Translations under genes and position numbers: made by a program
In this document: in pieces, positions 1 to 16,028 of the stretch
How the letters are laid out: each line of letters opens with the position of its first letter
Position numbering within the stretch: position 1 is the stretch's first letter
The notes under the pieces: model-generated
What the model saw: the letters and a program-made list of their open reading frames with translations, nothing else
What the model was told of the DNA's origin: nothing
The model's database searches: none
IMG/VR virus record: IMGVR_UViG_3300021090_000105
Coordinates: 1-23,264 of that record
Origin: a virus
Strand: one strand, 5' to 3'
DNA length: 23,264 bases

Positions 1-1331
1 TCCTTCAGCGAGTCCACGACGATGCGTGTCCGGCCGAACTTCTCGGCCATGCTGATCAACAGCCGTTTGTCCGCCGTCGGGTCTCCGGGAAGTGGTCCCT
101 CCCAGATCGTGAGCCGCTCACGGAGAATCGTGGTGATCTCGTCCTGACGGTCGGGGTGTGCCCGAAGAAATCTTGCCATGGCACGCTTGATTTGCTTCGG
201 CCTGTCCATGGCCAGGTACAGGATTCCGCCGTCCTCCATGGCCTCGATCGGAAAGTCAAGAAGGTCCGGCGTGAGCCCCAGCGCGCCCCACATCACCGCG
301 TGGGCCAGTGTGGACTTCCCGACGCTGGGAGGACCGACGATGGTCAGCGACTCCCCAGGAAGCCAGAGAGGAGTGTCCGGCGTGCCCCAGAGCGGCTTCG
401 GCTCCGGCTCGCTCACGTCCAGCCAGTCAGCGCCGTTGTGGGAGCGTGACTCCCAGTCCACGGCGCGACCGGTCTCCCTGGCTATCCGGTCGTCCACCAG
501 GCCACGGGCGCGCTGGTTGACGTACAGGTCCCTGGCCTTGATCTTGACGCGGTCCTCGTAGGGGCCCTCGTAGTCGAACGGCTCCCCCTCGTTCTCTTCC
601 GCCAGCGGCCCCGCTTCTTCGAGCCAGCTCCTGAGAGCCTCCGTACGGCCTTCGGGGTCGATCAAGGCAAGAGCGTCGTCCAGGCCCGTTCCCTGGTCTC
701 CAGGGACGAATACGAACCGCACAGATGCGGCTCCGGCCTCCACCAGCTCCACCGAGAACTTCTCTGCGGCATCGGGAACGTCCGGGTTGGACTTGTTCCA
801 CACATCCGAGTCGAACGCCACGAACACGTCACGGCCACTCACGAATGAAAAGTCAGCGCCGGACCATGCCCGGCATCCGTGAACTCCGATCACCGCGTAC
901 TCACCCGGGGCGTAGGAGTCGGCCGCCAGGACTTGCTTGTTGCCCTCCACGAACAGGATCTTGTCGAAGCCATCCATGTTGGTGAAGTGGGCCAGCTTTC
1001 CGTTGAGCGATGACGGGATGATCGGGCCGGTACGCACCATGTTGATGGTGCTCACTCCGGCAGGCCCGATGTACTTGGCCGGTCTTCCGTCTCCGTCCAG
1101 CGCTGGGGCGTCCGGCCGGTACCGGGAACTGGCCTTACCGTTTGGCATCCTGACCGGGAAGAGAATCCCGGGAGCAGGCGTGAAGTAGGCCAGTTCTGCG
1201 ATGTCTTCGGGGAGTTCATCACGGTCCGAGATGGACCGGAGCCCGTGGCGGTCGATCACTTCGTCAGTGATCGCGTGGCGGTTCAGGTATGCGCGGTGTT
1301 CCGGGGTAAGTCTTGACTGCGTGTCACTCAT
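1..1331 (-). CDS. Phage primase-helicase (TOPRIM + RecA/RepA-like ATPase), N-terminal and central part, truncated by window edge
   Basis: Open from an ATG at 1331 to the left edge: 443 complete codons plus two bases, with no stop. An AGGAG at 1344-1340 sits 8 bases before the ATG. The N-terminal half resembles the DUF3854/TOPRIM-type primase domain: a conserved Glu in VEGNK (about residue 129) and a DxD in AFDSD (D174, D176), as in the metal-binding site of TOPRIM primases. A second domain has a Walker A motif, GPPSVGKST (about residues 333-341), followed by ILYLAMDRPKQ and then RIVVDSLKD at the edge. That pattern fits AAA_25/RepA-like hexameric helicases. Its likely role is to prime and unwind DNA for replication of the element. 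The missing C-terminus is very probably the fragment at 22759-23264, which begins within the same ATPase fold. The gene lies downstream of the XRE regulator on the same strand, separated by a hairpin. Exact family names are from memory. Confidence 0.85.
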   Translation of the reverse strand, partial: MSDTQSRLTPEHRAYLNRHAITDEVIDRHGLRSISDRDELPEDIAELAYFTPAPGILFPVRMPNGKASSRYRPDAPALDGDGRPAKYIGPAGVSTINMVRTGPIIPSSLNGKLAHFTNMDGFDKILFVEGNKQVLAADSYAPGEYAVIGVHGCRAWSGADFSFVSGRDVFVAFDSDVWNKSNPDVPDAAEKFSVELVEAGAASVRFVFVPGDQGTGLDDALALIDPEGRTEALRSWLEEAGPLAEENEGEPFDYEGPYEDRVKIKARDLYVNQRARGLVDDRIARETGRAVDWESRSHNGADWLDVSEPEPKPLWGTPDTPLWLPGESLTIVGPPSVGKSTLAHAVMWGALGLTPDLLDFPIEAMEDGGILYLAMDRPKQIKRAMARFLRAHPDRQDEITTILRERLTIWEGPLPGDPTADKRLLISMAEKFGRTRIVVDSLK

Positions 1332-1407: not shown

Positions 1408-1605
1408 TCATGCCCGGCCGTCTTCGTACAGTTGCTCCACTGTGAGCCCCAGAGCGCGGGCCAGCTTGACGGCGTTTCCAACGGTCGGCTGAATCCCCTT
1501 GCTCTCCCACATGGCGACCGTGGACTGACCGACTCCGGCGGCCTTCGCCAGCTGTACCTGTGTCATCCTCGCCCTCTGGCGAAGTGACCTTACGTCAATA
1601 CGCAT
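1408..1605 (-). CDS. XRE-family (Cro/CI-like) helix-turn-helix regulator
   Basis: A 65-residue protein that is almost entirely one HTH_3/XRE domain. The N-terminal part reads RSLRQRARMTQVQLAKAAGV, followed by GQSTVAMWESKGIQPTV, with the recognition helix around residues 27-36, and it ends in LARALGLTVEQLYE. Such single-domain proteins act as phage or plasmid repressors, Cro-like switches or copy/transfer control proteins. The ATG at 1605 has GAGG just upstream. The gene is divergent from the plus-strand gene at 1700. The shared intergenic region carries overlapping promoters and a palindrome at 1638-1658 that this protein is the obvious candidate to bind, which would give autoregulation plus control of the plus-strand genes. 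No dimerisation or RecA-sensitive cleavage domain is present, so it is not a LexA/CI-type cleavable repressor. The regulator class is clear; its target is inferred. Confidence 0.85.
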   Translation of the reverse strand: MRIDVRSLRQRARMTQVQLAKAAGVGQSTVAMWESKGIQPTVGNAVKLARALGLTVEQLYEDGRA

Positions 1606-1699: not shown

Positions 1700-2044
1700 A
1701 TGAAGACCAACGGAATCCCGGACTTCCTGGAGACGCTCCAGGACAACGACCACACCACGGCCAACGCACTGCTGGCCATCCGTGACGAACTCCGTCGTCA
1801 GTGGGACGCCGACAACGAGCACCGGTACCTCACGCCGCAGAGCCAGACCCCGGCCGCCGTCGCGATGTTCTCGAAGATCGAGGGCACGCCGGAGTGGCAT
1901 GAGGCGAAGGCTCTGCAGGAGCTGAAGGACTACGAGCGGACCTGTCACAGCTCCGCGTACACCACGTCCAACAACCAGGCCCTCAAAGCAGCTCAGGTTC
2001 ACGCGACGCTGGCGATCAGCAAGCGCATGGGTCTCGGTAAGTAA
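1700..2044 (+). CDS. Hypothetical protein, first gene of the plus-strand unit
   Basis: A 114-residue soluble protein of unrecognised family, preceded by an AAGGGA about 9 bases before the ATG. It is mostly helical and charged, for example IRDELRRQWDADNEHRY near residues 26-42. It has no membrane segment, signal peptide or cysteine motif, and only one cysteine. It is transcribed divergently from the XRE regulator, from a promoter overlapping the palindromic operator, and is followed by a strong hairpin terminator, so it appears to be a monocistronic early gene. That position, opposite a repressor gene, is where phages and conjugative plasmids often keep an anti-repressor, excisionase or replication-control protein. 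Nothing in the sequence supports one of these over the others. That it is a real gene is supported by the promoter, ribosome site, consistent codon use and terminator. Confidence 0.7.
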   Translation: MKTNGIPDFLETLQDNDHTTANALLAIRDELRRQWDADNEHRYLTPQSQTPAAVAMFSKIEGTPEWHEAKALQELKDYERTCHSSAYTTSNNQALKAAQVHATLAISKRMGLGK

Positions 2045-2170: not shown

Positions 2171-2197
2171 ATGCTCAACAGGAGGGCAGCGACATGA
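2171..2197 (+). other. Possible 8-codon leader peptide ORF overlapping the next start
   Basis: ATG at 2171, six bases after the -10-like TACGAT, opens an 8-codon frame whose TGA (2195-2197) overlaps the ATG at 2194 as ATGA. The frame runs across the AGGAGG (2180-2185) used by the next gene, so translating it could affect or couple to that start. It may also be chance. Confidence 0.25.
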
Positions 2198-2328
2198 TCA
2201 GCAGCGACCAGGAGTCACGAATCCGGGCACGGATCGCCAGGGCCTTCGCCGAAGACGCGGACAAGTACGAAGCTGACAAGCACTCCGCTCTTGAGGACAT
2301 CGAAGAGATCATGGATGAGTCGTCATGA
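2194..2328 (+). CDS. Small acidic protein (44 residues) coupled to the FtsK-like translocase gene
   Basis: ATG at 2194 is preceded by a perfect AGGAGG (2180-2185) with 8-base spacing, and the frame ends at TGA 2326-2328. It overlaps the translocase start as ATGA, so the two are translationally coupled. The product is highly charged and almost all helical: an Arg/Gln-rich first part (SRIRARIARAFAEDADKY) and a strongly acidic end (EDIEEIMDESS). It has no cysteines and no membrane segment. I do not recognise the family. A short gene directly ahead of a plasmid tra gene could encode an accessory or regulatory partner, but that rests on position alone. The excellent ribosome site and the 4-base overlap are the evidence that it is translated. 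Confidence 0.65.
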   Translation: MISSDQESRIRARIARAFAEDADKYEADKHSALEDIEEIMDESS

Positions 2329-3563
2329 ACTGGCTCACGATCGTGTACCTGGTCGGCGCGGGCCTGCTCTGGCTGGGCTACCGGCACATGAAGAACAGCG
2401 CCGTGATCCGGATGGAGACCCGGAAGGCCAAGCGCTCCATGGTCGTCCATGAGCGCGCCAAAGTGTCCGTGAAGGCCCGTCGCCCCCTCCGTCAGATCCT
2501 CCACACCCACGCTCCGGATTCCGTCGTCCTCCGGATGCTCCGGTGGAATCCGGAACGCCGGATCCGGAACAAGGTCCGGATCGCCCGTCGCGGATTCCGT
2601 GGACGTTACGAGCGGATCCGTCCGGACCAGCACATCGCCGTCATCGGCATGACCGGATCCGGGAAATCCTCCACCCTCCGCGTCCTGGGTGCCTGGGCTC
2701 TGCTGGCCCCTGGCTGGTATCTGGAGGCCTGGGATGGGAAGTGGGGCGCGTCCGTCATCGCCTATGTGGGGAAGGCCCGGACGCTGGACACGATCGACGG
2801 TATCGAGGCCAGGCTTCGGGACCTGGTGGAGCGGGAGCTACCGCTACGCGCCCGCCGCCTTCGTGAGAACGGGTCGGTGTCCCATCTCGCCATCATCATG
2901 GACGAGTCCAGGCTTCTGAACGAACTGACCTCGGAGGCTCTCCGCAACCTGGTCACCCTGATCCAGACAGGGCGGGAGCTGGGTGTCCACTGCTGGTTCG
3001 GGCTGCAGGACCCGAAGGCGGACAGCATCCCGACGGCCATCCGTGACCAGTTCACATGCAAGATCGTCCACATGCTCCAGAACCAGGACGCCGCACAGGT
3101 GGCCCTGAAGGAGCTGGTGGCCGGAGGGTGGCACCCCCACAAGCTCATGAGGTCCGGTCAGGCGCTCGTCTGGGAGCCTGTACGCAAGCCACGCGTCCTG
3201 TTCGGCCTGTGGCTACCCGTCGGCAGGCTGGCGTCTCTGCAGGGGCCCACAGGCCCTCTCAGCGCTCCGGAGCTGGGTGTCCCCGTGGACCTGGTGAAAG
3301 CGTCCGTCCGCCTGCCCGGACACGCGCCTGACCTGGGCTCCCCCACCCGGACGGACGGACGGACGGACGCGCTGACCGAACGTCAGGCCGCCGCCGTCAT
3401 GGTGCTCGGGGAGATGGGCTCAATGGGTCCGGCCGCGCTCGCCTCCGAACTCGGCCTGGAGCGCAATCGCGCACACGACGTACTGAAGCAGCTGGTGGCC
3501 AAGGGATTCGCCACCACCACGGAAGAGGGCGTTTACACCCTCGTTAAGGAGCACAGATCATGA
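2325..3563 (+). CDS. FtsK/SpoIIIE-type DNA translocase, Streptomyces plasmid transfer protein (TraB/TraSA-like)
   Basis: A 412-residue protein. One N-terminal membrane helix (about residues 4-20) is followed by a basic linker, then an FtsK-type ATPase. Walker A is GMTGSGKSS (108-116, Lys114). Walker B is LAIIMDESR (Asp193, Glu194). A typical FtsK segment with RELGVHCWFGLQDP and SIPTAIRDQF spans 217-243. Residues 350-408 form a winged-helix domain (TERQAAAVMVLGEMG... ALASELGLERNRAHDVLKQL). In Streptomyces conjugative plasmids a single FtsK-like hexamer moves double-stranded DNA between hyphae. Its C-terminal winged helix reads short repeats at the clt locus, as FtsK gamma reads KOPS. The domain order here is the same. 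Start overlaps the 44-residue gene (ATGA), and the stop overlaps the SpdB-like gene (ATGA). It could alternatively serve phage DNA segregation, but the SpdB-like neighbour favours intermycelial transfer. Confidence 0.88.
   Translation: MNWLTIVYLVGAGLLWLGYRHMKNSAVIRMETRKAKRSMVVHERAKVSVKARRPLRQILHTHAPDSVVLRMLRWNPERRIRNKVRIARRGFRGRYERIRPDQHIAVIGMTGSGKSSTLRVLGAWALLAPGWYLEAWDGKWGASVIAYVGKARTLDTIDGIEARLRDLVERELPLRARRLRENGSVSHLAIIMDESRLLNELTSEALRNLVTLIQTGRELGVHCWFGLQDPKADSIPTAIRDQFTCKIVHMLQNQDAAQVALKELVAGGWHPHKLMRSGQALVWEPVRKPRVLFGLWLPVGRLASLQGPTGPLSAPELGVPVDLVKASVRLPGHAPDLGSPTRTDGRTDALTERQAAAVMVLGEMGSMGPAALASELGLERNRAHDVLKQLVAKGFATTTEEGVYTLVKEHRS
2406..2660 (+). repeat. Cluster of ATCCGGA/TCCGGAT heptamers and GGATCC palindromes inside the translocase gene
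   Basis: Heptamer loci start at 2406 (octamer ATCCGGAT), 2513, 2530, 2548, 2562 and 2575. There is a further TCCGGA at 2621 and GGATCC at 2560, 2614 and 2655. The elements occur on both strands and fall in several codon phases. A second cluster lies at 4042-4235. Candidate recognition sites for the translocase winged helix. Confidence 0.6.
3349..3368 (+). repeat. Five tandem GGAC tetranucleotides in the linker of the translocase
   Basis: Perfect (GGAC)5 encoding a TRTDGRTD linker between the ATPase and the winged-helix domain (about residues 341-348). Gain or loss of one unit would shift the frame and remove the winged-helix domain, so slippage could switch the DNA-recognition domain on or off. 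That is inference. Confidence 0.75.
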
Positions 3564-4237
3564 CTCAGCCCATGCCCGTCAAGCCCCCGAAGGTCCGCCG
3601 CCCGATCACGGAGACGGCCCCGGGCCTTCTCCTGTTCGTGCTCGCCGTGACAGCCCTGGTCGTCTCCGGCTGGAGCATGGCCACCCTGCTCCACGACCAG
3701 GCGTCCGCCCCCTGGTGGGTGGCCTCGCTCGGAGTCGGAGTGTTCGATGTGCTGGCGCTGCAGGCCGCCCTGCTGGTCAAGGCCCGCCGTGACGACCCCT
3801 GGAAGGCGGCCGGAGCGCAGTGCGTGATGATCCTATCGGTCGTCTCCAGCATGGTCGTCAACGGCGCGCACGGCTGGTCGCTGGGCGGCTGGACCACGGC
3901 CATGGTTCTGGGTGCCGCTCCGGTCACGTTCGAAGTGGCGTTCGCGATCAAGTACCGGACGCTGACCGTGCTGATCTGGGTTCTGTTCGGTAAGGAGTCG
4001 ATGACCCGCCTTCGTCATGAGGCCTGGTCGCGGATCGCCCTTCCGGATGTTCCGGGCTCTCCGGCCGTCATTCCCGGATCCGTGGAACGGATCTCCGGAC
4101 GATCCGGAATCCGGAACCAGGTCGCGGAACTGTACGGATCCGGGATCACGGATCCGGAACGGATCATCGCGGAACTTCCGGACTCCAATCCGGAATCCGT
4201 CCGGAGATACGTCCGTGAGATCCGGAAGTCCGGATAA
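3560..4237 (+). CDS. SpdB-like / DUF2637-type membrane spread protein with C-terminal HTH-like tail
   Basis: A 225-residue protein whose start overlaps the translocase stop (ATGA). Four hydrophobic helices are visible: about 22-44, 53-72 (with the FDVLALQAALLV core), 83-104 and 111-130. They are followed by a soluble C-terminal region. This matches the integral membrane spread proteins (SpdB; DUF2637 type) that sit next to traB in Streptomyces plasmids and help plasmid DNA cross septa within the recipient mycelium. The last 40 residues (RNQVAELYGSGITDPERIIAELPDSNPESVRRYVREIRKSG, here read in two parts: about 185-205 and 206-225) look like a helix-turn-helix, so the protein may bind DNA at the membrane. 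That C-terminal part, residues 161-225, is encoded by the densest heptamer cluster in the window. A 12-bp inverted repeat follows the stop. Confidence 0.75.
   Translation: MTQPMPVKPPKVRRPITETAPGLLLFVLAVTALVVSGWSMATLLHDQASAPWWVASLGVGVFDVLALQAALLVKARRDDPWKAAGAQCVMILSVVSSMVVNGAHGWSLGGWTTAMVLGAAPVTFEVAFAIKYRTLTVLIWVLFGKESMTRLRHEAWSRIALPDVPGSPAVIPGSVERISGRSGIRNQVAELYGSGITDPERIIAELPDSNPESVRRYVREIRKSG
4042..4235 (+). repeat. Second ATCCGGA/TCCGGAT heptamer cluster, in the 3' end of the SpdB-like gene
   Basis: Heptamers start at 4042, 4102, 4109, 4152, 4188, 4220 and 4229: seven in 194 bases, with 4102 and 4109 in direct tandem. Extra TCCGGA is at 4094, 4177 and 4200, and GGATCC at 4076, 4136 and 4150. 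Five of the seven read ATCCGGA on the plus strand. By eye I saw only three such heptamers elsewhere in the window (5758, 8578, 19214), though this count is not exhaustive. Candidate clt-like transfer locus. Confidence 0.65.
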
Positions 4238-4247
4238 CCAAGAGCAG

Positions 4248-4290
4248 GGGTCCCGCCGATTGACCATCACGTACACCGTCGGCGGGACCC
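4248..4290 (+). terminator. Perfect 12-bp inverted repeat after the SpdB-like gene
   Basis: GGGTCCCGCCGA at 4248-4259 and its exact complement at 4279-4290, with a 19-base loop, begins 11 bases after the stop at 4237. No T-run follows. It could be a terminator or attenuator before the 4309 gene, or part of a transfer locus next to the heptamer cluster. Confidence 0.5.
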
Positions 4291-4308
4291 TACCAACAGG
4301 GGGATGCT

Positions 4309-4521
4309 ATGCAGTGGCTGATCACGTTCACGATCCTGGGAGCAGGGTGTTACCTGCTGTCATGTGCGATCTGGCCGTACAAACCGTGCCGACTGTGCGA
4401 CGGGAGCAAGCGGCATATGGCCGTAGGAACCGAGCGTGCCTATCGGCGGTGCCTGTGGTGCAAGGGTTCGGGTGAACGTCTCCGGCTGGGTAGACGGATG
4501 CTGAACCGGTTCCGTCACTAG
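4309..4521 (+). CDS. Small membrane protein with CxxC...CxxCxGxG zinc-finger-like motif
   Basis: A 70-residue protein. A hydrophobic N-terminal helix (about 3-21) is followed by Cys27-x2-Cys30 and Cys48-x2-Cys51-x-Gly-x-Gly, the pattern of a DnaJ-type or rubredoxin-like zinc knuckle, then a basic tail (RLRLGRRMLNRFRH). The ATG at 4309 has AGGGGG upstream. Small proteins of this build often accompany tra/spd genes in actinomycete plasmids, so it is probably a membrane-anchored accessory of the transfer apparatus with a cytoplasmic, possibly nucleic-acid-binding, zinc site. That role is inferred from the context and the motif. I do not recognise a named family. It lies just downstream of the 12-bp inverted repeat, so its expression may depend on read-through. 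Confidence 0.65.
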   Translation: MQWLITFTILGAGCYLLSCAIWPYKPCRLCDGSKRHMAVGTERAYRRCLWCKGSGERLRLGRRMLNRFRH

Positions 4522-4553: not shown

Positions 4554-4769
4554 ATGAGAGTCATAGACGACGCGGAGCTACCGCGCCGCATTCCGTGGGA
4601 GACGTTCCAGAACGGCGCGACCTGGGAGGTAATCCCGATCACGGAGTTCCAGAAGACCCCCCGTCAGTTCTGCGCCGCTCTCAGTATCTGGGCTCGGAGG
4701 CATGGCCGCCGGTCCACCTGGAAGACGGATGGTGACACCGTCACCTTCCGCATGGAGATGCTCGGATAA
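4554..4769 (+). CDS. Hypothetical protein (71 residues), last plus-strand gene
   Basis: ATG at 4554, preceded by GGAAGG at a long spacing (about 13 bases) or read as a leaderless start from TACGAT. The protein is soluble, with mixed charge, and has the segments IPWETFQNGATWEVIPITEF and FCAALSIWARRHGRRSTWKT, and a probable beta-strand end (DTVTFRMEML). This alternation of short strands and a central basic helix suggests a small folded domain. I do not recognise it. It is the last gene before the convergent late operon and the terminator at 4842-4885. It may belong to the transfer unit or be independently expressed. Whether it is a gene at all rests on length, start context and lack of any competing frame. 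Confidence 0.55.
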   Translation: MRVIDDAELPRRIPWETFQNGATWEVIPITEFQKTPRQFCAALSIWARRHGRRSTWKTDGDTVTFRMEMLG

Positions 4770-5243: not shown

Positions 5244-5771
5244 TTATGCGATTCGTTGATACCAGATCATAGAGTCGGCCTGAAGTGTCACGGTGATCAC
5301 GGGAGTGGTAATCACTCCTACGGCGAACTGAAGCTGAACCGTCCCCGCTGTGATGACCTGGATGTCCATGATGTCCTCGTACAGGCTGAAGGCGTTGTCC
5401 GTTCCGGCCGTGCCTCCGACTCTCACGTCCGTTCCCAAAGACCTGGCCACGCTCATAAGGTTCGAGTCGATGTTCGACGTGGCTCCAAGGGCCAGGCCTG
5501 TGATCCGGCGGGTCACGGTGACGTCAGCTGGCCCGGTCCACTGGAAATTGATGTCCCCGTCTGTGTTCGATACCGGGGCGTCATATGCGATAAGCGACCG
5601 CGCCCGGTACCGGGAGTTGGCCTCAACTGTGAAGCCCAGGCCCGTCGCGTCGGTGAATGTGGTTGACGTGCTGGTCTGTGCTCCGGCGTCGTTCGTGACA
5701 AAAGCCCACTTGCCCGCGTTCAACAATGCGGCTGTGACGGTCTGTCCGGCCAGGATCTCCGGATAGGGCAT
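5244..5771 (-). CDS. Putative tail-tip or host-recognition protein, paralogue of the upstream gene
   Basis: A 175-residue, beta-rich protein, poor in cysteine and rich in Thr, Ala and Val. It starts MPYPEILAGQTVTAALLNAGK and ends with TLQADSMIWYQRIA. It is clearly homologous to the gene at 5775-6281. Both share the start MPYP, the xLNAGKxxFVTN segment, TTFTDATGLGF/TTFVDATDLGF, LIAYDAP/LIGYDAP, SNIDSN/TNIDSN and the LQADS-x-I/W-YQRI end. Proteins of this pattern are found as small structural proteins near the tail-tip genes of actinophages. A jelly-roll-like trimeric fold is plausible but not shown. The start lies 3 bases after the upstream stop, with a weak ribosome site, so translation is probably coupled. 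Confidence 0.6.
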   Translation of the reverse strand: MPYPEILAGQTVTAALLNAGKWAFVTNDAGAQTSTSTTFTDATGLGFTVEANSRYRARSLIAYDAPVSNTDGDINFQWTGPADVTVTRRITGLALGATSNIDSNLMSVARSLGTDVRVGGTAGTDNAFSLYEDIMDIQVITAGTVQLQFAVGVITTPVITVTLQADSMIWYQRIA

Positions 5772-5774
5772 GGC

Positions 5775-6281
5775 CTACTCGATTCTCTGGTAGTAGATGA
5801 TCGAGTCGGCCTGAAGGGTCGCCGTCCCGACCCCGCTGGCCGCGAAGCGGAACTGAGCTGTCCCCGCGCTCACGGTGATCAGGTCCGTGACCTCTTCGTA
5901 GACGCTGAAAGCGTTGGCCACGGCGTTCGGGCCACCCGCGATAACGGCCGTGGTGGCTCCACGCCGGATCTTCGCCATGTTGCTGTCAATGTTCGTTGTG
6001 GTGGTGGCTACCAGGTACTCGCAGTTTCGCGCCGTGGCGGCCCCGGACGGCATGGACCAATCGAATTTGATGTCAGGGGTCGTCGGCGCGTCGTATCCGA
6101 TCAGGACATGGATCTTGTACCGGGCGCTGGCCTCCACCGCGAACCCGAGATCCGTGGCGTCCACGAACGTCGTGGTGGCGTTGGTCTGCGCCCCTCCGGC
6201 GTTGGTGACGAATTCAAGCTTGCCCGCGTTCAAGTCGGCGGCCAGCACCCTCTGACCGGCGGTGAATGTCGGATACGGCAT
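5775..6281 (-). CDS. Putative tail-tip or host-recognition protein, first of a tandem pair
   Basis: A 168-residue, beta-rich protein starting MPYPTFTAGQRVLAADLNAG and ending TLQADSIIYYQRIE, paralogous along its whole length to the next gene downstream. The copies differ mainly in the middle (about residues 70-110), where the lengths and side chains vary, as expected if a surface loop is under diversifying selection. The ATG at 6281 follows GGGAGGGG with 4-base spacing, right after the stop of the large tail protein. The position at the end of the virion operon, after the tail proteins, is where receptor-binding or fibre proteins are usually encoded. No catalytic or carbohydrate-binding motif is recognisable, so the role is inferred. 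Confidence 0.6.
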   Translation of the reverse strand: MPYPTFTAGQRVLAADLNAGKLEFVTNAGGAQTNATTTFVDATDLGFAVEASARYKIHVLIGYDAPTTPDIKFDWSMPSGAATARNCEYLVATTTTNIDSNMAKIRRGATTAVIAGGPNAVANAFSVYEEVTDLITVSAGTAQFRFAASGVGTATLQADSIIYYQRIE

Positions 6282-6290
6282 GGCCCCTCC

Positions 6291-8516
6291 CTACAGAGCG
6301 ACGATCATTGGCTGGGCAAGACGGATGTCCGCCCCCGTGTTCTGGACCTTGACGATCCCGTTGACGGCCCTGGTCACGGTGAACGTCTGGGGGCTGGTGG
6401 TGCCCGTGATGGCCGTAACGGTCATGATCTCGCCACCGATCGAGATGTCGAACGGGAATTCGGACGCGTAACCGGCGCTGTCCACCCAAACGGGGCCGGT
6501 CGTCGTGGTGACGCTCATGGATGTGGCCACGTCTGTGATGCCGGTCGTCAGGGTGGACCCCGACGTGTCGGCCCTGCCGAACGTGGCGCTGTCCAGGGTC
6601 GCGACCCTCCATGGTGACTCCGGAGCGCCGTTGAAGCTGATCACGTGCTCGAACTGGTCGAACCACTCCGTGTAGCTGTTCATGATCTGGCTGATGTCGC
6701 CCGGGGGGAGCCAGGCCGGAACGTCGGTGACCAGGTACCGGTCTCCCGGCTTCAGGACCAGGGCGGACGCCGTCAGGTCGTAGCTGGCCGTGAAGTTGGA
6801 CCGCTTCAGGTGAACGGTGATCGTCGGGTACCGGGGCTCGTCAACCGTGCCCACATGGACGCGCCATGACGCCTGGTCCAGTAGCTGTTCGTCGGCTTCC
6901 AGGCTGAGCGTGGGGGCGTCGTCGTACGTCCCGATGCCGTCGGGAGGGGGGAGGATTGAGAGTGGCCCAGATTCGAGTACAGCCCGCGCTGAGGACCCTT
7001 GGTCGCGCTTGACCGTGACGTCGTTCCGGGACAGCTGATCGTCGTCCACCGGGATCGGGACCTCGAACAGGTCGCTGTTCTCATACGACAGTGTCATCAC
7101 GGGGTCACGGTTGTAGAGAGACAACCGGCTCCGGTACTCCAGGCCGAGACGGTCACGGGGCTCGTACAAAACACCCATGTCGGTGTCCACACACTCCTGG
7201 AGAAGATCCACCAGGGTCTTCAGCCCCTGAGGACCCATGACCCCGGCCGTGTTCCCGGTCTGGCCGTTGGTCAGGGACACGAACGAGATGCCCTCTTCCC
7301 TGCAGAGACGGCCGATCCGTGTGGTCGGGCTCTCCCCCAGGTAGGCGATGCTCTGGTTATAGAGGTCGAAGGACGATGACGTCTGGATCTGAAGGGACAG
7401 GTGCCCGTAGGCCGTCAGGCCCGCGCCCTGGCCAGGGTTGAGACTCAGCTGCGTGACCCGCCCTACGGTCATGCCCGTGAACGTCGTCGGGTCGTTGGCC
7501 AGGTACAGCCCCAGGTAGACCACGGAGACCTGAGCGGAGACGTTGGCCCCGGACTGCGTGAGTTCGACGGAGACCCGCGTGAGCTGGCCCGGGAGGGACG
7601 TCAGGCTACCGAGTGCGCCGGAGTCCTGGAGGATCGCCCCGTCTTCGTCGTAGGCCCTCAGGCCGAGAAGCCCTGTCGGGTTGTCGTAGTACAGTTCCCA
7701 CTTCTTCGCCGTCCCCGTGGTGGATATCCAGCAGATGCGTTTTCCGTTGGTCTCTCCGGCAGCGGGGATGGCCAGCAGGAATCGGACCTGGGTCTCTCCG
7801 GACACCGTGTACGGCGGAATCTTGGCGATGATCGACCCGCCCGCCATGGTCGGGATCGGCTCGGAGCTGTCGAAGTCCGTGAAGCTGGCCAGGTCCGGGG
7901 TACCCGAGATCTTCGCGTTCGGCACTCCCGATACGGCGCTGGCGAAGAACGTCGAATCGTCGCCGTCCTCCATGGTCCAGTAGGCGATGACGGGGTTGTC
8001 CGTCTCCCTGGCCAGCCCCCGGTACATGGTCGAGTGGAGGGGCTGGTTCCCCTGGCTGAGTCTGCGGAGCACCCCGGCCGCCGAGATCGTCACCCAGACG
8101 TCGTTACCGGTCAGGTCCCAGTTCTGCGGCCAGGCCACGATCTCACCGTGGAAGCGGAAGCGCTGGGTGCCCTCCTGGTCCACGGACACGCGGACGGGGG
8201 TGTTCCGGCCGATCTTCCCGTACAGGGGTGACGTCGGGTTGCGCGGGCTGTACTTACCGCCCCTGTTGTTCAGGGTGAACGTGCATGTGTTCTGCTGAAC
8301 GCGTGCCGACTCGTCAGGCCGTCCCCCCGTGGTCCTGATCTTGTCCGCGTATCTGACGTCGGGGCTGATGTCCGTCCACGCCTCATTGACGAAGATCTCC
8401 ACCAGGGGGCCGACCGATGTAGAGCTGGTGGAGGACATGTCTCCGGAGGAACCGGCACCCGGGAAGCCCCCGGGCCTCCACCGCTTCCATCCTTCGACCT
8501 TCGGCCCTGCCCTCAC
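6291..8516 (-). CDS. Large minor tail protein (tail tip/baseplate) with lectin-like central region
   Basis: Up to 741 residues from a GTG at 8516, four bases after the previous stop. An alternative ATG lies about 25 codons in (MSSTSSTSVGPLVEIFV), and neither has a strong ribosome site. The N-terminal domain (VEIFVNEAWTDISPDVRYAD, TFTLNNRGGKYSPRNPTSPL) is the pattern of actinophage minor tail proteins that bind the tape-measure end of the tail. Residues of about 170-370 look like a LamG/concanavalin-type beta-sandwich (YWTMEDGDDSTFF, then WELYYDNPTGLLGLRAYDEDG), a fold often used for glycan binding. The C-terminal third is a beta-rich domain with repeated ITVTAITGTTSPQTFTVTRA-like strands. No peptidoglycan hydrolase motif is seen. 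It is likely a tail-tip hub and possibly carries host-recognition activity. Confidence 0.75.
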   Translation of the reverse strand: MRAGPKVEGWKRWRPGGFPGAGSSGDMSSTSSTSVGPLVEIFVNEAWTDISPDVRYADKIRTTGGRPDESARVQQNTCTFTLNNRGGKYSPRNPTSPLYGKIGRNTPVRVSVDQEGTQRFRFHGEIVAWPQNWDLTGNDVWVTISAAGVLRRLSQGNQPLHSTMYRGLARETDNPVIAYWTMEDGDDSTFFASAVSGVPNAKISGTPDLASFTDFDSSEPIPTMAGGSIIAKIPPYTVSGETQVRFLLAIPAAGETNGKRICWISTTGTAKKWELYYDNPTGLLGLRAYDEDGAILQDSGALGSLTSLPGQLTRVSVELTQSGANVSAQVSVVYLGLYLANDPTTFTGMTVGRVTQLSLNPGQGAGLTAYGHLSLQIQTSSSFDLYNQSIAYLGESPTTRIGRLCREEGISFVSLTNGQTGNTAGVMGPQGLKTLVDLLQECVDTDMGVLYEPRDRLGLEYRSRLSLYNRDPVMTLSYENSDLFEVPIPVDDDQLSRNDVTVKRDQGSSARAVLESGPLSILPPPDGIGTYDDAPTLSLEADEQLLDQASWRVHVGTVDEPRYPTITVHLKRSNFTASYDLTASALVLKPGDRYLVTDVPAWLPPGDISQIMNSYTEWFDQFEHVISFNGAPESPWRVATLDSATFGRADTSGSTLTTGITDVATSMSVTTTTGPVWVDSAGYASEFPFDISIGGEIMTVTAITGTTSPQTFTVTRAVNGIVKVQNTGADIRLAQPMIVAL

Positions 8517-8519
8517 TGA

Positions 8520-9032
8520 TCACTCATCCCATACCACGAAGCAGCGCATGTTCACGGCCGCGCTGAACGTGACCCTGATCCGGAGAAAGCGGGAGATCGC
8601 CACCTCCGGCCGCTCGTCGGGCATGAACTGATAGGTGTACTCCGTCGGGCTGGCTCCGTTGGAGACCCCGGCCACGTTGACGACGTCGAAGACACGAGTC
8701 GCGGTGATGGACCCCTCCGCCGACCCGGTGTACCCCGTGTTGGCGGTCCCCAGGGTCATCAGAGAGGCCGTCTCGTTGGGGTCCTGCGGCTGGACCCCGG
8801 CCGCCACATGGGCTGTCACCGTGGCCGCTACGTCCGTCTGGAGCAGCTCCACGACCCCGACCCCGGTGGTTCCGGGAGCGGCGTCCACGGTGAAGCCCCA
8901 GGCGATGACCTTCAGTTTCCGGGTTGACGGGGTGTTGATCTGGAGCATGGTCTTGATCGCCGTGCCCGTGGTCACAGCCGCTTGCGCGGCCGTGGTCGGC
9001 ATCGGCCCGTTCCAGCTCTTGTATGTGGGCAC
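8520..9032 (-). CDS. Tail-associated structural protein (170 residues)
   Basis: A GTG start at 9032 (MPTYKSWNGPMPTTAAQAAV) has AGGAG 8 bases upstream, directly after the tape measure stop. The protein is beta-rich and Thr/Val/Ala-rich throughout, with strands such as RKLKVIAWGFTVDA, TGVGVVELLQTDV and FLRIRVTFSAAVNMRCFVVWDE. It is hydrophilic enough to be a virion surface protein. It lies between the tape measure and the large minor tail protein, where the distal tail protein (Dit) normally lies in siphoviruses. I do not recognise Dit motifs, so a decoration or tail-tip protein is equally possible. The overall style resembles the two small paralogues at 5244-6281, but I could not establish homology. 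Confidence 0.6.
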   Translation of the reverse strand: MPTYKSWNGPMPTTAAQAAVTTGTAIKTMLQINTPSTRKLKVIAWGFTVDAAPGTTGVGVVELLQTDVAATVTAHVAAGVQPQDPNETASLMTLGTANTGYTGSAEGSITATRVFDVVNVAGVSNGASPTEYTYQFMPDERPEVAISRFLRIRVTFSAAVNMRCFVVWDE

Positions 9033-9034
9033 GT

Positions 9035-10999
9035 TTATACTCCTAGGGCTCTCTGGACGGAGTCGGTTCCCGAACCCGCCGTCGCTCGGATGTTCTTCTT
9101 CAGCCAGGTCATGAACTCGTCCCCGCCGTTACCGCCGACCCATTGAAGTTGGACCACCCCGGAGCCTCCCCCGCCTCCGGACATGGCCGCTTCCGTGGCC
9201 CCGTTGGGGATGACGGTCGAACCGAACGGGAGTCTGACCATCTCCCGGCCCTGCTCTCCGACCATGACCAGGTTGGACCTGGGGCCGCCTCCGGCGGCTC
9301 CGGAGATGCCTCCGTGCGCGAAGCCGGGCACGAAGCGTTCGATGGAGTCGGGGATCATGTCCCGCACGGCTCCCATGATCGCTCCGCCCATGGACTTCAC
9401 GCCGCTCACGATGCCGGAGATGATCCGGCGACCGGCGGTGTAGAGCCAGCTCCCGGCATTCTTGAACACTCCGACGATCTTGTCTTTCACGCCGATGACG
9501 GCGTTACGGACGATCCGGCCCCCGTTGGCGGTCGCGTCTCTCATGGCCTCGAAGGACCGCTTCATGATGCCCTTGAGAATCCCGATGATGCCCGTGAAGA
9601 CCAGCTTGATACGGGCCACGATCATCTTGACGATCCCGACCAGGACCTCTCTCGCGCCCTTGAGGATGTCCTTGACGCCGTCCCAAGCTTTTTCCCAGTC
9701 GCCCGTCAGAATGCCCGTGAAGACCTTGAAGATCCCGACGATGACCGTGATGACGCCGGAGATGACGGTCAGGATGCCCTCCATGGTCTCGGCCACGAAC
9801 GGCCCAAGGATGTCGATGAAGAACGAGACCACTGGGGCAAGTGCGTCGATCAGGTCGCCGAAGGCCGGGATGAACTCTTCCTTCAGCTTCGTGAAGATCT
9901 CGGAGAGTACCGGCATGACGGCCTCTTTGATCTTCTCGAACGCCTCCACGATGTGGGGCCAGACCTCAGATGCGGCTGATTTTATGTCGTCAAGGAAGCC
10001 CGCGCCCTCCGGGGTCTTGGTGAAGAAGTCCACGAATGTCTGGTAGGCGGCCTTGATCTCGTCAAAGTGACGGATGATGATGCCCACGGCCGCGATGACG
10101 GCGATGACCGGGCCACCGAACGCGATGGCGATCAGCGCGATGGCGTCGGCCAGCAGGGCGAACTTCGTCTGGTAAAGCTCATAAATGGCAACGGCCTGTT
10201 TGATCCACCCGACCAGGGTGGAAATCGCGTCCCGGACGGCCGTCACGGTGTCCTTCAGCTTGGACAGCCCGCCCCCGACAGACTTGGCGTTGATCTTGTC
10301 CATGACCTCGATCAGTTTGTCCATGATCCCTGACAGGCCATTCTTTCCGGCCGCCATGGACACGCCCATGATCCGCCCCAGCATCTTGGCGAAGCTGATG
10401 GCGGTCTCTGCGATCTTCGGGGCCAGCTCGATCATGGTCTTGCCGATGGGGTCGAGAATGTTCCTGATCGTCTTGACGCCCTGGGTGGAGTTGGCCCAAC
10501 CCAGGAACCCCTTCATCACCTTGTTAGTGGCAATGCCGATGTTGTCCATGGCGGAACGGATGGCGGGGAAGTTCATCTTCACGAACTCCTGAGCGAGAGG
10601 CTTGATCCCCCGGGACGCCATCTCCGACGCGTGCTCTCCGGCGTGTTTGAACGCGTGCGCTATGGGCTCCAGGGCCAGACGAGCGGCCGACCCCTCCTTG
10701 AAGATCTGGGACAGGGTCGTCTTGACGAAGATACCGGCGACCGCGAACGCCACCAGGGCCGGAGCAGCCTGAACGGCCGCCTGCCCAACCCCGTACACGG
10801 CCTTGACCACAGGGACCAGCAAGGGGGCGGCTGAGATGGCCGTAGAAGCCACGGCGGCCAGCTTCAGGGCCATCTGCCCAAGCGGGGCCAGCGACTCCAG
10901 CACCTTGCCCCTGAGGGCCGTCATGCCCCTGCCCACGCCATCGAAGACGTTGCTGGCCATGTCCCGCGCGCGGACGTGGATCTCAACCGTGTTCGCCAT
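9035..10999 (-). CDS. Tape measure protein
   Basis: A 654-residue protein that is mostly helical, with alternating hydrophobic stretches at about 40-100, 280-310 and 390-440. A Gly-rich C-terminal part contains GFAHGGISGAAGGGPRSNLV and VGEQGREMVRLPFGSTVIPN, a tail segment that is very common in actinophage tape measures. It lies directly after the tail assembly chaperone pair, the canonical place. Two ATGs occur, at 11002 and 10999. The second is preferred because GGAGGTGA then ends at a better spacing. The start lies inside the end of the frameshifted chaperone reading frame. At the usual rule of about 0.15 nm per residue, the tail would be near 100 nm. No lysozyme or peptidase domain is embedded, unlike some actinophage tape measures. 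Confidence 0.92.
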   Translation of the reverse strand: MANTVEIHVRARDMASNVFDGVGRGMTALRGKVLESLAPLGQMALKLAAVASTAISAAPLLVPVVKAVYGVGQAAVQAAPALVAFAVAGIFVKTTLSQIFKEGSAARLALEPIAHAFKHAGEHASEMASRGIKPLAQEFVKMNFPAIRSAMDNIGIATNKVMKGFLGWANSTQGVKTIRNILDPIGKTMIELAPKIAETAISFAKMLGRIMGVSMAAGKNGLSGIMDKLIEVMDKINAKSVGGGLSKLKDTVTAVRDAISTLVGWIKQAVAIYELYQTKFALLADAIALIAIAFGGPVIAVIAAVGIIIRHFDEIKAAYQTFVDFFTKTPEGAGFLDDIKSAASEVWPHIVEAFEKIKEAVMPVLSEIFTKLKEEFIPAFGDLIDALAPVVSFFIDILGPFVAETMEGILTVISGVITVIVGIFKVFTGILTGDWEKAWDGVKDILKGAREVLVGIVKMIVARIKLVFTGIIGILKGIMKRSFEAMRDATANGGRIVRNAVIGVKDKIVGVFKNAGSWLYTAGRRIISGIVSGVKSMGGAIMGAVRDMIPDSIERFVPGFAHGGISGAAGGGPRSNLVMVGEQGREMVRLPFGSTVIPNGATEAAMSGGGGGSGVVQLQWVGGNGGDEFMTWLKKNIRATAGSGTDSVQRALGV

Positions 11000-11578
11000 C
11001 ATTCACCTCCCCCTCTTCCTGGTCCGGCCTCTTGCCCATGGCCTCGATCTTGATCAGTTTCAGGAGGTAAGCGTCCTCCGCGAGCACCTCACTGGGCAGC
11101 TTGTGGAACGCCCTGCAGAGACCAAGGATGGTCTCCGCCTCCTCCAGCTCGAACGGCTTCTCTACAGGGGTGCCATCGGAATAGGTGCCTCCGGGAAGGT
11201 CCCTCCAGATCGTGAGTCTTTTCCCAGGTCGGCCGACACTCCGGCGACCGCTTCGATCCAGGCCATGATGATCGACAGGACGAAGTCGAAGTCCTGATCC
11301 TTGACCCCTTCCAGGGTCGCCGGTACCGGTTCGTCCTTCTCGTCCTCCAGGTTCCAGGACACCAGCGCGGATGCGAAGCCCTCGAACAGGGATTCGACCG
11401 CGCGGGCGTCGTTGGCGGTGAACTCCCGCTTCTTCCCCGCCTGACCCGCGAGATCGGCCAGCTTCATCAACCCCATGAGACGGCCGGACGACACGGACTT
11501 CGTGACAACCTCCAGGCCCTCCATCTCGGGGTCGTCGAAGACCAGCCTGTACTGGAGGCTCTTGCGCTTGTATCCCAT
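10983..11578 (-). CDS. Tail assembly chaperone, long form made by -1 ribosomal frameshift (gpGT-like)
   Basis: Same start as the short form, but at GGGAAAA (11225-11219) the ribosome can slip back one base. After AAA it then reads AGA CTC ACG ATC TGG and continues open for 78 codons to the TGA at 10985-10983. The added part reads RLTIWRDLPGGTYSDG at its start, has a helical middle (KPFELEEAETILGLCRAF, LAEDAYLLKLIKIEAM) and an acidic end. The total is about 198 residues. The extension overlaps the first 17 bases of the tape measure gene. In lambda and most siphoviruses the G/GT pair at this position folds the tape measure and recruits the tail-tube subunit. This product is not visible as an ordinary ORF. 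Confidence 0.85.
11162..11578 (-). CDS. Tail assembly chaperone, short form (gpG-like)
   Basis: A 138-residue protein. The ATG at 11578 is preceded by AAGGAG 7 bases upstream. A much longer upstream extension of the same frame (to 11965) overlaps the tail-tube gene and is not real. The protein is acidic and helical, with FDDPEMEGLEVVTKSVSSGR near the start, FTANDARAVESLFEGFASALVSW in the middle, and EGVKDQDFDFVLSIIMAWIEAV before the slip site. This matches the two-helix-bundle profile of actinophage tail chaperones. Most ribosomes are expected to end at the TAG at 11164-11162, so this is the abundant form. It acts in the cytoplasm during tail assembly and is absent from the virion. It lies between a tail tube gene and the tape measure. 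Confidence 0.85.
   Translation of the reverse strand: MGYKRKSLQYRLVFDDPEMEGLEVVTKSVSSGRLMGLMKLADLAGQAGKKREFTANDARAVESLFEGFASALVSWNLEDEKDEPVPATLEGVKDQDFDFVLSIIMAWIEAVAGVSADLGKDSRSGGTFPEAPIPMAPL
11219..11225 (-). promoter_or_regulatory. -1 programmed frameshift slippery site GGGAAAA
   Basis: Read in the zero frame as CTG GGA AAA GAC, the bases G-GGA-AAA have the X-XXY-YYZ form, the same type as lambda's GGGAAAG. The downstream -1 frame is open for 78 codons and ends 20 bases inside the next gene. I did not find a clear stimulatory pseudoknot by eye. Confidence 0.85.
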
Positions 11579-11588
11579 GCCGGTCTCC

Positions 11589-12002
11589 TTACGCGTTGAC
11601 CCAGACGGGGGCGGTGCCGTCGGCCAGGACGCCCGGTGCGGTCCACACCAGCGACCCATCGGCAGCGCGGGCCAGCGAGTAATCGGTGTAGAGCGTCTCG
11701 CACTGGAGGTACGGGGTCGCTGAACTGGTGGGGATGATCTTCGTGGTCCGAAGCGTGTTGTCGTCGGTGACGTTCTCGAACACCGTGTGACTGAGCGCCG
11801 CGTTGAAGACCCCGGTGAGGGACACGGAGAAGTCCGCCAGCAGCAGCAGCCGTTCCATGGCGCTCTTGTTGACGCCGGTCGTGTCCTGGACGGCCCGGGG
11901 AGTGGCGAACTGGAAGCTGTTGACGTCGTTGCTGATGTCGGTGAGTGACGGCACGGAGGTATCAACCGAGATGGTTGCCCCGAGTCCGGTTACCTTGGCC
12001 AA
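11589..12002 (-). CDS. Second major tail (tube) protein homologue, short form
   Basis: A 137-residue protein with a TTG start (12002), GAAAGGGG about 10 bases upstream and no in-frame ATG nearby. It is homologous to the N-terminal half of the 240-residue tail protein at 12675-13397. Shared features are MAK-x2-GLGA, VDTS/VDGY, DISNDVNSF/DINSLS, RAVQDTTGVNKSAMERL against RAALDFTAIDKTGFERL, and a later R-x-ADGSL. The fold would be the beta-sandwich of siphovirus tail-tube subunits. It sits immediately upstream of the tail chaperone genes, where the major tail protein normally is, and has TAPGVLADGTAPVW at its C-terminus. It may be the main tube subunit, with the longer paralogue a decorated tube or tail-terminator partner, or the reverse. 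Confidence 0.75.
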   Translation of the reverse strand: MAKVTGLGATISVDTSVPSLTDISNDVNSFQFATPRAVQDTTGVNKSAMERLLLLADFSVSLTGVFNAALSHTVFENVTDDNTLRTTKIIPTSSATPYLQCETLYTDYSLARAADGSLVWTAPGVLADGTAPVWVNA

Positions 12003-12007
12003 TGGAC

Positions 12008-12427
12008 TCAGCCCCTTTCTAGAATCGTGATGATCTTGTCCTGGTGCTCTGAGAAGTCCTCGGCCCAGTCAAGCCCGTTGACGTGACGGCGGATCACGCC
12101 CCTGTTCTGCCGTCGGTCCCCGCCGTAGACATAGAACGACTCTGACACCGTCTTGTGGTCGGCGAAACAACGCTGCCCGGCCTCGAAACGGAAGACGGTC
12201 AGGCCAGCCGTGGTGCGACCCTCCCGGAACGTCCGGCCCGACATGGTCCGCACGTAATGAGCCTGGTTCAGGCCCAACTCCGTGGTCTCGTCAAAGGTCG
12301 ATTCCCAGCCCTTGGCGTACGCCTGACACCCGACGTCACGGCACGTGGCCTTCTGCACGGTGTCCCTTCTCCGGGAGTAGGCGTACGTCTGGTAGGCACC
12401 GGGCGGCATGTTCGGTTCGATGATCAC
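12008..12427 (-). CDS. Hypothetical protein in the tail operon (139 residues)
   Basis: ATG at 12427 overlaps the previous stop as ATGA. The sequence is charged and rich in Arg, Tyr and Phe, with MIIEPNMPPGAYQTYAYSRR at the start, two cysteines in KATCRDVGCQAYAKG (about residues 27-42) and a C-terminal helix ending DWAEDFSEHQDKIITILERG. The Cys-x4-Cys pair followed by a third Cys (QRCFADHK, about residue 88) could bind a metal ion or be structural. The position between the two tail-tube homologues is fixed in many actinophage genomes with similar small proteins of unknown role. I do not recognise a named family. Its reality is supported by the operon overlaps and by consistent codon use. Confidence 0.6.
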   Translation of the reverse strand: MIIEPNMPPGAYQTYAYSRRRDTVQKATCRDVGCQAYAKGWESTFDETTELGLNQAHYVRTMSGRTFREGRTTAGLTVFRFEAGQRCFADHKTVSESFYVYGGDRRQNRGVIRRHVNGLDWAEDFSEHQDKIITILERG

Positions 12428-12675
12428 GGTAGGTCCTCCGGCCTTGGTCTCGATCTGGTGATGACCGGGGCTCCGCGCTCCCCGGTACCTTTCGGCCTGG
12501 CGTCCGGCGAACGGAGTTCGAGGAACCCCAGGAACGAATCCGCCAGCTCCAGGCCCGTCTGTCCGAGCACGTACGGCTTACCGGCGTCGTCCCATGCCAG
12601 GACCGGCCGGAGGGTCTCGCCGTCCTTCTCTTCGAGGAAGTAGGCGGCCACGACTTGACGTGTGCATTCGAACAT
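12424..12675 (-). CDS. Hypothetical protein in the tail operon (83 residues)
   Basis: The start used is the ATG at 12675, which overlaps the upstream stop as TGATG. A longer version from 12726 would run into the tail gene and is rejected. The product reads MFECTRQVVAAYFLEEKDGE, then RPVLAWDDAGKPYVLGQTGL and ELADSFLGFLELRSPDARPKG, and ends in a basic, Pro-rich tail. It has mixed alpha/beta character and no membrane segment. The stop overlaps the next start (ATGA). The family is not recognised. The short C-terminal linker suggests a small structural adaptor, but that is a guess. Confidence 0.6.
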   Translation of the reverse strand: MFECTRQVVAAYFLEEKDGETLRPVLAWDDAGKPYVLGQTGLELADSFLGFLELRSPDARPKGTGERGAPVITRSRPRPEDLP

Positions 12676-13397
12676 CAGAATACCGTCACGATCTTGTTCC
12701 GCTTGAACATGACGGCGAACACGCACGAACTGAAGGTGCCCGTGGTGGCGATCCTGACGTACCTGTCCACCGTGCCGGACACGGCCTTACGCTCCGTGGT
12801 CCGGCCCGTAGCGGCTGTGAACCCGATCAGGGACGCGAAGCTGATGTTGTCCGTGGAGTCCTCCACAGTCACCGTGCATGAGGTCCCGGTGAAGCTGAAC
12901 ACTTGCAGATACGCCTGAGCGCCCTGCGTCGTTCCGGCCGTCTGATCGAGGCCGGTGGAGTTCGTGGCCGACGTGTCGGTCTGACGACCGGCCGTGAGCA
13001 TCACGCCCCACTCCAGCCCGAAGCCGTTGGACTGGGCGGACGTGGCCAGGGTCAGGGAGCCGTCGGCCCCGCGAGTCGGGTCATAGCCCACCAGTTTGGC
13101 GACCGTGGCGGCGGCCTTGTTCCCTACCGTGGTCCCCCGGAAGTACGCGACCTGAACGTCAGTCGTGGGGAGCAGGGACAGGTCCAGATGGGCCTGTCCG
13201 GCGGCCGAGTTGAAGTAAGAGACGAAGTCGATCCCGCCGTCTTTCAGCCCGCCGAGCCTCTCGAAGCCGGTCTTGTCGATGGCCGTGAAGTCCAGGGCGG
13301 CCCTTGACGTGCTGATACGAGAAAGGCTGTTGATGTCTCCGGACAGGTTGTACCCGTCCACGTACAGGGCGTCTCCGAGTCCGCTGCTCTTGGCCAT
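12675..13397 (-). CDS. Major tail (tube) protein homologue with C-terminal Ig-like extension
   Basis: A 240-residue protein. The ATG at 13397 has GGAGG 7 bases upstream and overlaps the previous stop as TAATG, so it is preferred over the start at 13415. Residues 1-130 are homologous to the 137-residue protein at 11589-12002 (MAKSSGLGDALYVDGYNLSG, then RAALDFTAIDKTGFERLGG, then FNSAAGQAHLDLSLLPTTDV). After about residue 150 there is a separate beta-rich domain (YLQVFSFTGTSCTVTVEDST, FASLIGFTAATGRTTERKAV, DRYVRIATTGTFSSCVFAVM) resembling the Ig-like or carbohydrate-binding domains that decorate tails. The likely role is a tube subunit, with the added domain projecting outward. The stop overlaps the next start (TGATG). 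Which of the two paralogues forms the tube is not resolved. Confidence 0.75.
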   Translation of the reverse strand: MAKSSGLGDALYVDGYNLSGDINSLSRISTSRAALDFTAIDKTGFERLGGLKDGGIDFVSYFNSAAGQAHLDLSLLPTTDVQVAYFRGTTVGNKAAATVAKLVGYDPTRGADGSLTLATSAQSNGFGLEWGVMLTAGRQTDTSATNSTGLDQTAGTTQGAQAYLQVFSFTGTSCTVTVEDSTDNISFASLIGFTAATGRTTERKAVSGTVDRYVRIATTGTFSSCVFAVMFKRNKIVTVF

Positions 13398-13855
13398 TAC
13401 GGGGCCTCCGTCCAAAGATCATTGATCACTACCGGAACCGTGACGGTTCCCTGCCGGTACCACGTGTTGTCGATCAGGGTGTATCCGAACAGGGCCCCCA
13501 GGGGTGCGCCGTGCTCGTTCAGGAGGTCCACGTTCCGGACCATGCCCCCGAGTGTGAAGTCTCCGGAGTAGGCCCTGATCAGCTCGTCCACGGCCGAGAG
13601 AAGCGCCTGCTCCATCTCCTCCTGGGGCTCTACGAAGGCCGGATACAGGGCCATGGCGCTGAACGTGATCAACCCCGTCGTGCTGTTGAGGCCGGACGAT
13701 CCAACCGCTGGCTCGATCTCCTTGGTCCAGATCGCCAGGGAGAGGCCGTTACCCGGTGCGTTCTTGGGCTCATGACCTTTTACCCGCTCGAACAACCCCA
13801 GGGATTGGCCGTGGCTCAACATGGCGGCGAAGATACCGGCTGTGTTCAGGCTCAT
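13397..13855 (-). CDS. Tail completion/terminator-like protein
   Basis: A 152-residue protein. ATG at 13855 overlaps the previous stop as ATGA. It has MSLNTAGIFAAMLSHGQSLG, then the acidic helix EEMEQALLSAVDELIRAYSG, and a C-terminal strand region (YRQGTVTVPVVINDLWTEAP). Small proteins of this length lying between the HK97-gp10-like neck protein and the tail tube gene are usually tail terminators or tail-to-head joining proteins in siphoviruses. The LFERVKGHEPKNAPGNGLSLAIW segment resembles the central part of many actinophage tail terminators (residues about 21-43). The order of genes is stronger evidence than the sequence. Confidence 0.6.
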   Translation of the reverse strand: MSLNTAGIFAAMLSHGQSLGLFERVKGHEPKNAPGNGLSLAIWTKEIEPAVGSSGLNSTTGLITFSAMALYPAFVEPQEEMEQALLSAVDELIRAYSGDFTLGGMVRNVDLLNEHGAPLGALFGYTLIDNTWYRQGTVTVPVVINDLWTEAP

Positions 13856-15284: not shown

Positions 15285-15358
15285 CCTGTGACCTTGCTTT
15301 CTTGTCCGTACGGCCGGAGCCGTAGGGAGAGGCTGTTTATGAAGTTGTCAGGGCCAGG

Positions 15359-16020: not shown

Positions 16021-16028
16021 GGTGTCTC

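Follow-up and report, generated by a model that had tools for sequence, protein, structure and literature searches.

In Streptomyces plasmids, double-stranded DNA is transferred by a TraB hexamer, and spd genes are required for intramycelial spread (PMC4170104, PMC12857230). At the clt of pSVH1, TraB recognizes 8-bp repeats; SpdB2 is a DNA-binding protein that also interacts with TraB, and SpdA2 binds to palindromes located within its own gene (PMC4170104). Plasmid-phages of Streptomyces, which an earlier sequence-only reading of the present DNA had mentioned, are exemplified by the 90-kb pZL12, to which PMC3583192, where it cites Zhong 2010, ascribes both a phage cycle and genes for conjugal transfer; pSLE1 resembles pZL12 (PMC4487206). 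According to a review, the formation of phage-plasmids by gene acquisition is so far unobserved (PMC11652158).

The DNA analyzed here, a virus record of 23,264 bases whose whole length is termed the window, corresponds to a near-complete actinobacterial siphophage genome, circular and of about 23.3 kb. It resembles pZL12 and pSLE1, plasmids that combine genes for phage particles with an FtsK-like transfer gene adjacent to membrane genes, and shares with pSLE1 an array of short sites in the DNA coding for an HTH tail, although that of pSLE1 is of the GGCTCA type. These plasmids measure 86–90 kb, whereas the window has 23 kb and a minimal cassette, and pZL12 itself shows no array; tblastn with the window translocase and SpdB-like protein gave no match in either plasmid. 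Since pZL12 is, as far as that source portrays it, a conjugating plasmid-phage, the concept of a two-way element is not new and the window would be a compact variant of this kind. The TraB/clt/SpdB system of pSVH1 and pIJ101 is also similar, with an FtsK-like ATPase bearing a membrane helix and a winged helix, an spd gene, and a cis site of short repeats, to which the window array would be a candidate counterpart, but the window translocase is much shorter, its array lies within coding DNA, and its transfer role is putative. Actinomycete integrative and conjugative elements (AICEs) have in common with the window an XRE regulator, TraB-like and SpdB-like genes, and a primase; unlike them, the window has a full head-tail operon and, among the genes scanned, no site-specific integrase. 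The Streptomyces phages phiSASD1, Dubu, OnionKnight, Gilgamesh, and Xkcd426 each possess one half of the gene pair, which is adjacent and complete in the window. New here are clusters of TCCGGA in the 5' end of the translocase gene and in the spdB tail-coding DNA, in three phages and one ICE-like element. Neither such a site array within the coding DNA of the cassette nor the exchange of the cassette between phages figured in the sequence-only reading.

The window genome and its transfer genes

The features of the window are listed in Table 1. Its head-tail operon contains the genes for TerL, portal, protease, capsid, adaptor, major tail, and tape measure, in keeping with the complete operon that had been noted beside the transfer module, and the integrase reported as absent has no match in Pfam, PHROG, or NCBIfam among the window genes scanned. 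Phage relatives with a common head-tail operon (G001–G004) were found through the terminase. Because the primase/helicase gene is split over both window ends and its two parts are separated by 48 bp in G002 and G003, the window is best read as a permuted circle of about 23.3 kb, short of about 44 bp; a further phage contig, L001, reads uninterrupted across the place matching these ends. Iterons of the GAGTTGG type adjoin the replication genes and accompany this replication module, being found also at about 2861–2900 in G002 and about 17258–17290 in G003, and the GGGTGCA type is found with the different module of G001 (about 9697). Head-tail operon, permuted circle, iterons, and primase/helicase together make the window a candidate phage-plasmid.

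Table 1. Coordinates of features in the window
Feature	Position	Strand	Basis
Primase/helicase, N-terminal part, cut by window end	3..1331	-	PHROG primase and helicase matches
XRE/Cro-type repressor, divergent to transfer operon	1408..1605	-	Pfam HTH_3, E 4e-15
Small gene accompanying this replication module in G002 and G003	1700..2044	+	genome comparison
44-aa ORF ahead of translocase gene	2194..2328	+	sequence
TraB-like FtsK-family dsDNA translocase, 412 aa	2325..3563	+	NCBIfam, PHROG, alignment, PDB profile
TCCGGA cluster 1, 7 sites, 5' part of translocase gene	2407..2626	.	
Translocase P-loop	about 2646-2672		
Translocase Walker B	about 2892-2906		
Translocase winged helix	about 3372-3545		
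SpdB-like membrane protein, 225 aa, C-terminal HTH tail residues about 184-224	3560..4237	+	
TCCGGA cluster 2, 10 sites, linker and HTH tail-coding DNA; candidate transfer site	4042..4234	.	
Small membrane protein, 70 aa, zinc-ribbon-like CxxC...CxxC	4309..4521	+	sequence; 94% identical in G001
71-aa protein	4554..4769	+	genome comparison
Head-tail and packaging operon	5244..21888	-	gene matches
Iterons, GAGTTGG and its complement, likely replication origin	22566..22750	.	shared with G002, G003
Same primase/helicase, C-terminal part	22759..23262	-	PHROG match

Some minor features of the phage genome were also recorded. Two tandem paralogous tail-region genes (5244–5771 and 5775–6281), about 50% identical, are paired throughout G001–G004, and two tail-tube-like genes (11589–12002 and 12675–13415) appear mutually related, with about 31% identity in cross-matches. 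A holin-like membrane protein is encoded on the minus strand at 4892–5212, and no endolysin was recognized by Pfam or PHROG among the genes scanned in 4892–8516. The tRNA-Val called by ARAGORN at 381–464, on the opposite strand within the primase gene, is probably a false positive.

The translocase displays the TraB domain order proposed from the sequence: a membrane helix, a P-loop ATPase (GMTGSGKSS) with Walker B, and a C-terminal winged helix, the two helical elements being modeled and the ATPase, with its FtsK/HerA-type matches, recognized by sequence. The AlphaFold2 model, built from two sequences, is of low confidence, with a mean pLDDT of 40. The best NCBIfam profile is plasmid_TraB (E 3e-8), followed by ESX/EccC ATPases; PHROG FtsK matches with E 2e-11, and the protein aligns over its full length with plasmid FtsK/TraB proteins. 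In a PDB search with a profile built from five translocase relatives, the first match is 6o1w (E 5e-15), a plasmid DNA translocase coupling protein that we take to be TcpA, the conjugation translocase of pCW3; an actinobacterial chain annotated FtsK/SpoIIIE (4e-12), EccC5 (4e-9), and FtsK (5e-9) come lower. A placement with chromosomal FtsK, which would have spoken against a transfer role, was thus not obtained: it has no match in the NCBIfam profile list and stands behind 6o1w in the PDB. The assignment to TraB is right in kind, but against the TraB equivalog NF041214 the translocase scores 32.5 bits for a curated cutoff of 800 and is not a member; it is also shorter than the TraB profile (412 versus about 640 aa).

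The plus-strand translocase, SpdB-like, and 70-aa genes overlap or stand closely spaced. For the SpdB-like protein, four membrane helices are predicted, together with a confident three-helix C-terminal tail (AlphaFold2, pLDDT of the tail about 84); the protein is 54–60% identical to a protein of the Streptomyces plasmid pRL2 annotated by NCBI as DUF2637. The four-helix SpdB/DUF2637-type neighbor announced by the sequence-only reading is therefore borne out by its helices, its HTH tail, its plasmid homology, and its position near a TraB-like gene, but not by Pfam, whose DUF2637 profile (PF10935) does not match the window protein. The same profile gives 25.2 bits (cutoff 22.8) for the homolog in L033 and 22.0, just below the cutoff, for the pRL2 homolog. 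Next comes what had been called a small zinc protein, a 70-aa ORF that combines a membrane helix with the CxxC...CxxC motif. Of the near-complete genomes, the three that have an FtsK-like gene (window, G001, and G004) also have the 71-aa gene, which is absent from G002 and G003.

Distribution of the gene pair

L001 and G001 carry the same pair, with 90% identity to the window for the translocase and 95% for the SpdB-like protein. In G001, the translocase, SpdB-like, zinc-ribbon, and 71-aa genes are 89–95% identical to those of the window while the replication module is different; conversely, G002 and G003 have the replication module of the window (90–98%) and neither translocase nor SpdB. In G004, which has a 127-bp terminal repeat, the corresponding slot is occupied by a gene for another FtsK-like protein, longer than that of the window, again accompanied by the 71-aa gene. 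A third phage contig with the pair, L034, holds the translocase C-terminus with its winged helix, an SpdB 65% identical to that of the window, and then tail genes. Since relatives with the same head-tail genes lack the pair or have another FtsK, the cassette is swappable, and these comparisons indicate that it is exchanged independently of both replication and head-tail genes.

The search for the pair in other phages, suggested earlier, succeeded for these contigs, but 50,697 phage records yielded no homolog of either the translocase or the SpdB-like protein. Among known Streptomyces phages, phiSASD1, Dubu, and OnionKnight have DUF2637 alone, in a form that cannot be aligned to the window SpdB, and Gilgamesh, Xkcd426, and Mischief19 have FtsK-like translocases; no DUF2637 was found in Gilgamesh and Xkcd426, and no adjacent FtsK-like/DUF2637 pair in this group. 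Profile comparison of the SpdB-like family with the phage DUF2637 proteins gave no relationship. Two of the latter, phiSASD1 gp15 (L027, 4974–5744) and Dubu gp38 (L028, 4974–5735), are named 'excisionase' in RefSeq and match Pfam DUF2637 with E about 2e-14; this label is probably a misannotation.

Outside phages, FtsK-like and DUF2637 genes adjoin in Streptomyces plasmids, and relatives of the translocase at E < 1e-8 occur in 2 of 296 Streptomyces genomes. The surroundings of these relatives, three chromosomal regions (A, B, and C), each comprise a serine recombinase, an XRE regulator, a translocase, and an SpdB-like gene; A and B also have a primase, and none of the three has a recognized capsid gene. 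They look like small ICEs, so that the nearest non-phage relatives of the cassette would be transfer-type elements. Compared with the window, the Streptomyces integrated elements show 42% and 30% identity for the translocase and 54–61% for SpdB. Such relatives, our basis here, suggest a mycelial host for the window phage.

TCCGGA arrays and the HTH tail

TCCGGA occurs 35 times in the window, and 17 copies fall within two stretches of about 200 bp; the same two clusters are present in L001. The SpdB genes of the three phages contain 10, 10, and 8 copies for 2.7, 3.0, and 2.1 expected from synonymous-codon shuffles, none of 2000 shuffles reaching the observed count in any phage, and TCCGGA is the most enriched of the 64 palindromes in each. 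A repeated peptide is not the cause of the array, as testified by the use of all three reading frames in the SpdB gene. Between the window and L001, individual sites turn over while their counts stay similar, and synonymous sites have changed less often where the SpdB gene codes for the tail (6/61 versus 37/144, p 0.014); no such extra constraint was seen at the array of the translocase gene. For calibration, the most enriched 6-mer was scored in each of 102 unrelated genes; the 95th percentile of these scores is z 5.1, compared with 5.5 for the window SpdB gene: since about 5% of unrelated genes have some 6-mer similarly enriched, the window array taken singly is modest evidence, and the case is built on the motif recurring in L001, in L034, and in region C. 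The arrays, enriched and conserved, are a candidate counterpart of a TraB-type cis-site (clt). A packaging (pac) role is ruled out because element C carries the array without phage genes.

The array follows the type of HTH tail. Region C has the phage tail type (SGxTDP...NPExVxRxxR) and a CGGATCCGG/TCCGGA array, and in regions A and B a different HTH tail (LGVS...) is accompanied by GGCTCA/CTGAGC arrays; TCCGGA thus goes with one type in three phages and element C, and GGCTCA with the other in A and B. This pairing was then tested on plasmid sequences outside those that had suggested it. Three plasmids with the B-type tail, including the phage-plasmid pSLE1, have 19, 17, and 22 copies of GGCTCA in the transfer gene for 2–3 expected, and this gene holds most of the copies of each plasmid locus. 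Since the membrane parts of these plasmid proteins differ from that of the window, it is the tail and not the membrane part that tracks the array, with the caveat that an array lying within tail-coding DNA is inherited together with the tail. The winged helix of the translocase was considered as sole explanation of the motif; this is weakened by regions A and C, whose winged helices are 72% identical while their arrays differ, and by B and C, whose ATPase cores are 81% identical, yet whose arrays differ. Repeats of NBC_00138 and of the pRL2 type may stem from repetitive peptides and were left out of the support. No clear array was seen in the SpdB-like or transfer membrane genes of pZL12, KMM 9044, Protofrankia, ADI95-16, and ITFR-21, so that a universal array is rejected and the array is a feature of some lineages only.

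To our knowledge, what is known of Spd proteins at the molecular level is limited to their membrane location and their DNA binding. The maintenance of the sites at low protein identity, along with the SpdA2 precedent, leads us to infer that the tail may read the array. In a more far-reaching reading, to which we give somewhat less than even odds, HTH tails attached to a variety of membrane proteins would read a dense site array in their own coding DNA; tail and array would therefore travel as one, self-recognising cassette among phages, ICE-like elements, and phage-plasmids, and would anchor the circle at a septal DNA pump. If true, this would amount to a type of transfer site that has so far gone unrecognised and would explain how Spd proteins choose DNA; the pairing opens a specific and quick test of their role by binding and recoding.

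Interpretation of the cassette

In the reading that we favor, with a probability of about 0.6, the region is a plasmid- or ICE-type cassette for double-stranded DNA transfer (spread), carried by a phage that has a circular genome and no integrase and probably maintains itself as a plasmid. It takes up the genes, their families and conservation, the cassette exchange, and the arrays described above, and adds three presumptions: that the proteins recognize the DNA, that they are located in the host membrane, and that transfer takes place. The SpdB-like protein would be located in the membrane of septa or hyphae, where its HTH tail, the winged helix of the translocase, or both would bind the TCCGGA arrays and so bring the circle into contact with a hexameric TraB-like ATPase. 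The latter would pump the intact double-stranded circle into a neighboring compartment or hypha, the divergent XRE repressor setting the timing of cassette expression. With a transfer kit and a site array in one phage genome, it is reasonable to suppose that the element may move both as particles and from cell to cell by septal transfer; a 23-kb phage with a two-gene cassette would then be a very small element spreading as particles and between mycelial cells.

The main rival, which we hold to be unlikely, is stable inheritance: the membrane-anchored HTH protein and a centromere-like array, with the FtsK-like pump moving sister copies of an extrachromosomal prophage to new compartments, would act without transfer between colonies. 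Several observations suit this explanation: the scan of the window genes gave no ParA/ParB-type match, and arrays also exist where the slot has no translocase. In SLP2, mutation of spdB2 leads to instability, and in pIJ101, spdA2/sps, whose site lies within its coding sequence, influences stability and not transfer (PMC4170104). However, the gene pair and its order match the transfer modules of plasmids and ICE-like elements, and spread and inheritance overlap in mycelia. A role of the ATPase in the phage cycle (DNA handling, packaging, entry, or exclusion of other phages) is improbable: the FtsK-like translocases of larger Streptomyces phages such as Gilgamesh, Xkcd426, and Mischief19 may serve the phage cycle there, but G002 and G003, close relatives with the same head-tail genes, do without a translocase, and the same pair is found in elements without recognised capsid genes. 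That the cassette is transient cargo without function, as its patchy occurrence among relatives could suggest, is very improbable and already largely refuted by the signal of purifying selection relative to L001 (dN/dS 0.19 for the translocase gene and 0.04 for the SpdB-like gene); in addition, the cassette is intact and syntenic in G001, and its SpdB end in L034. An assembly chimera of plasmid and phage, conceivable in that the pair is seen with these phage genes in metagenomic contigs only, is refuted by the same junctions, with different divergence, in contigs of other datasets.

Several points count against the preferred transfer reading: the translocase is short and far below the curated TraB cutoff, its gene shows no extra synonymous constraint at the array, about 5% of unrelated genes have a 6-mer of similar enrichment, pZL12 and four other SpdB-like plasmid genes are without a clear array, and the slot that holds the cassette in the window has arrays of a different motif in G002 and G003, although these genomes have no translocase. 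The two genomes may be mobilisable in trans, or may use their arrays for another purpose. The same phage backbone with and without the cassette offers natural comparisons. The clusters in this slot are of TGGTAC/GTACCA and lie at 21579–21809 and 22543–22735 in G002 and at 13016–13311 and 14029–14243 in G003; G004 has TGGTAC/GTACCA clusters plus TGGCAC at 14973–15268 and 15705–15874.
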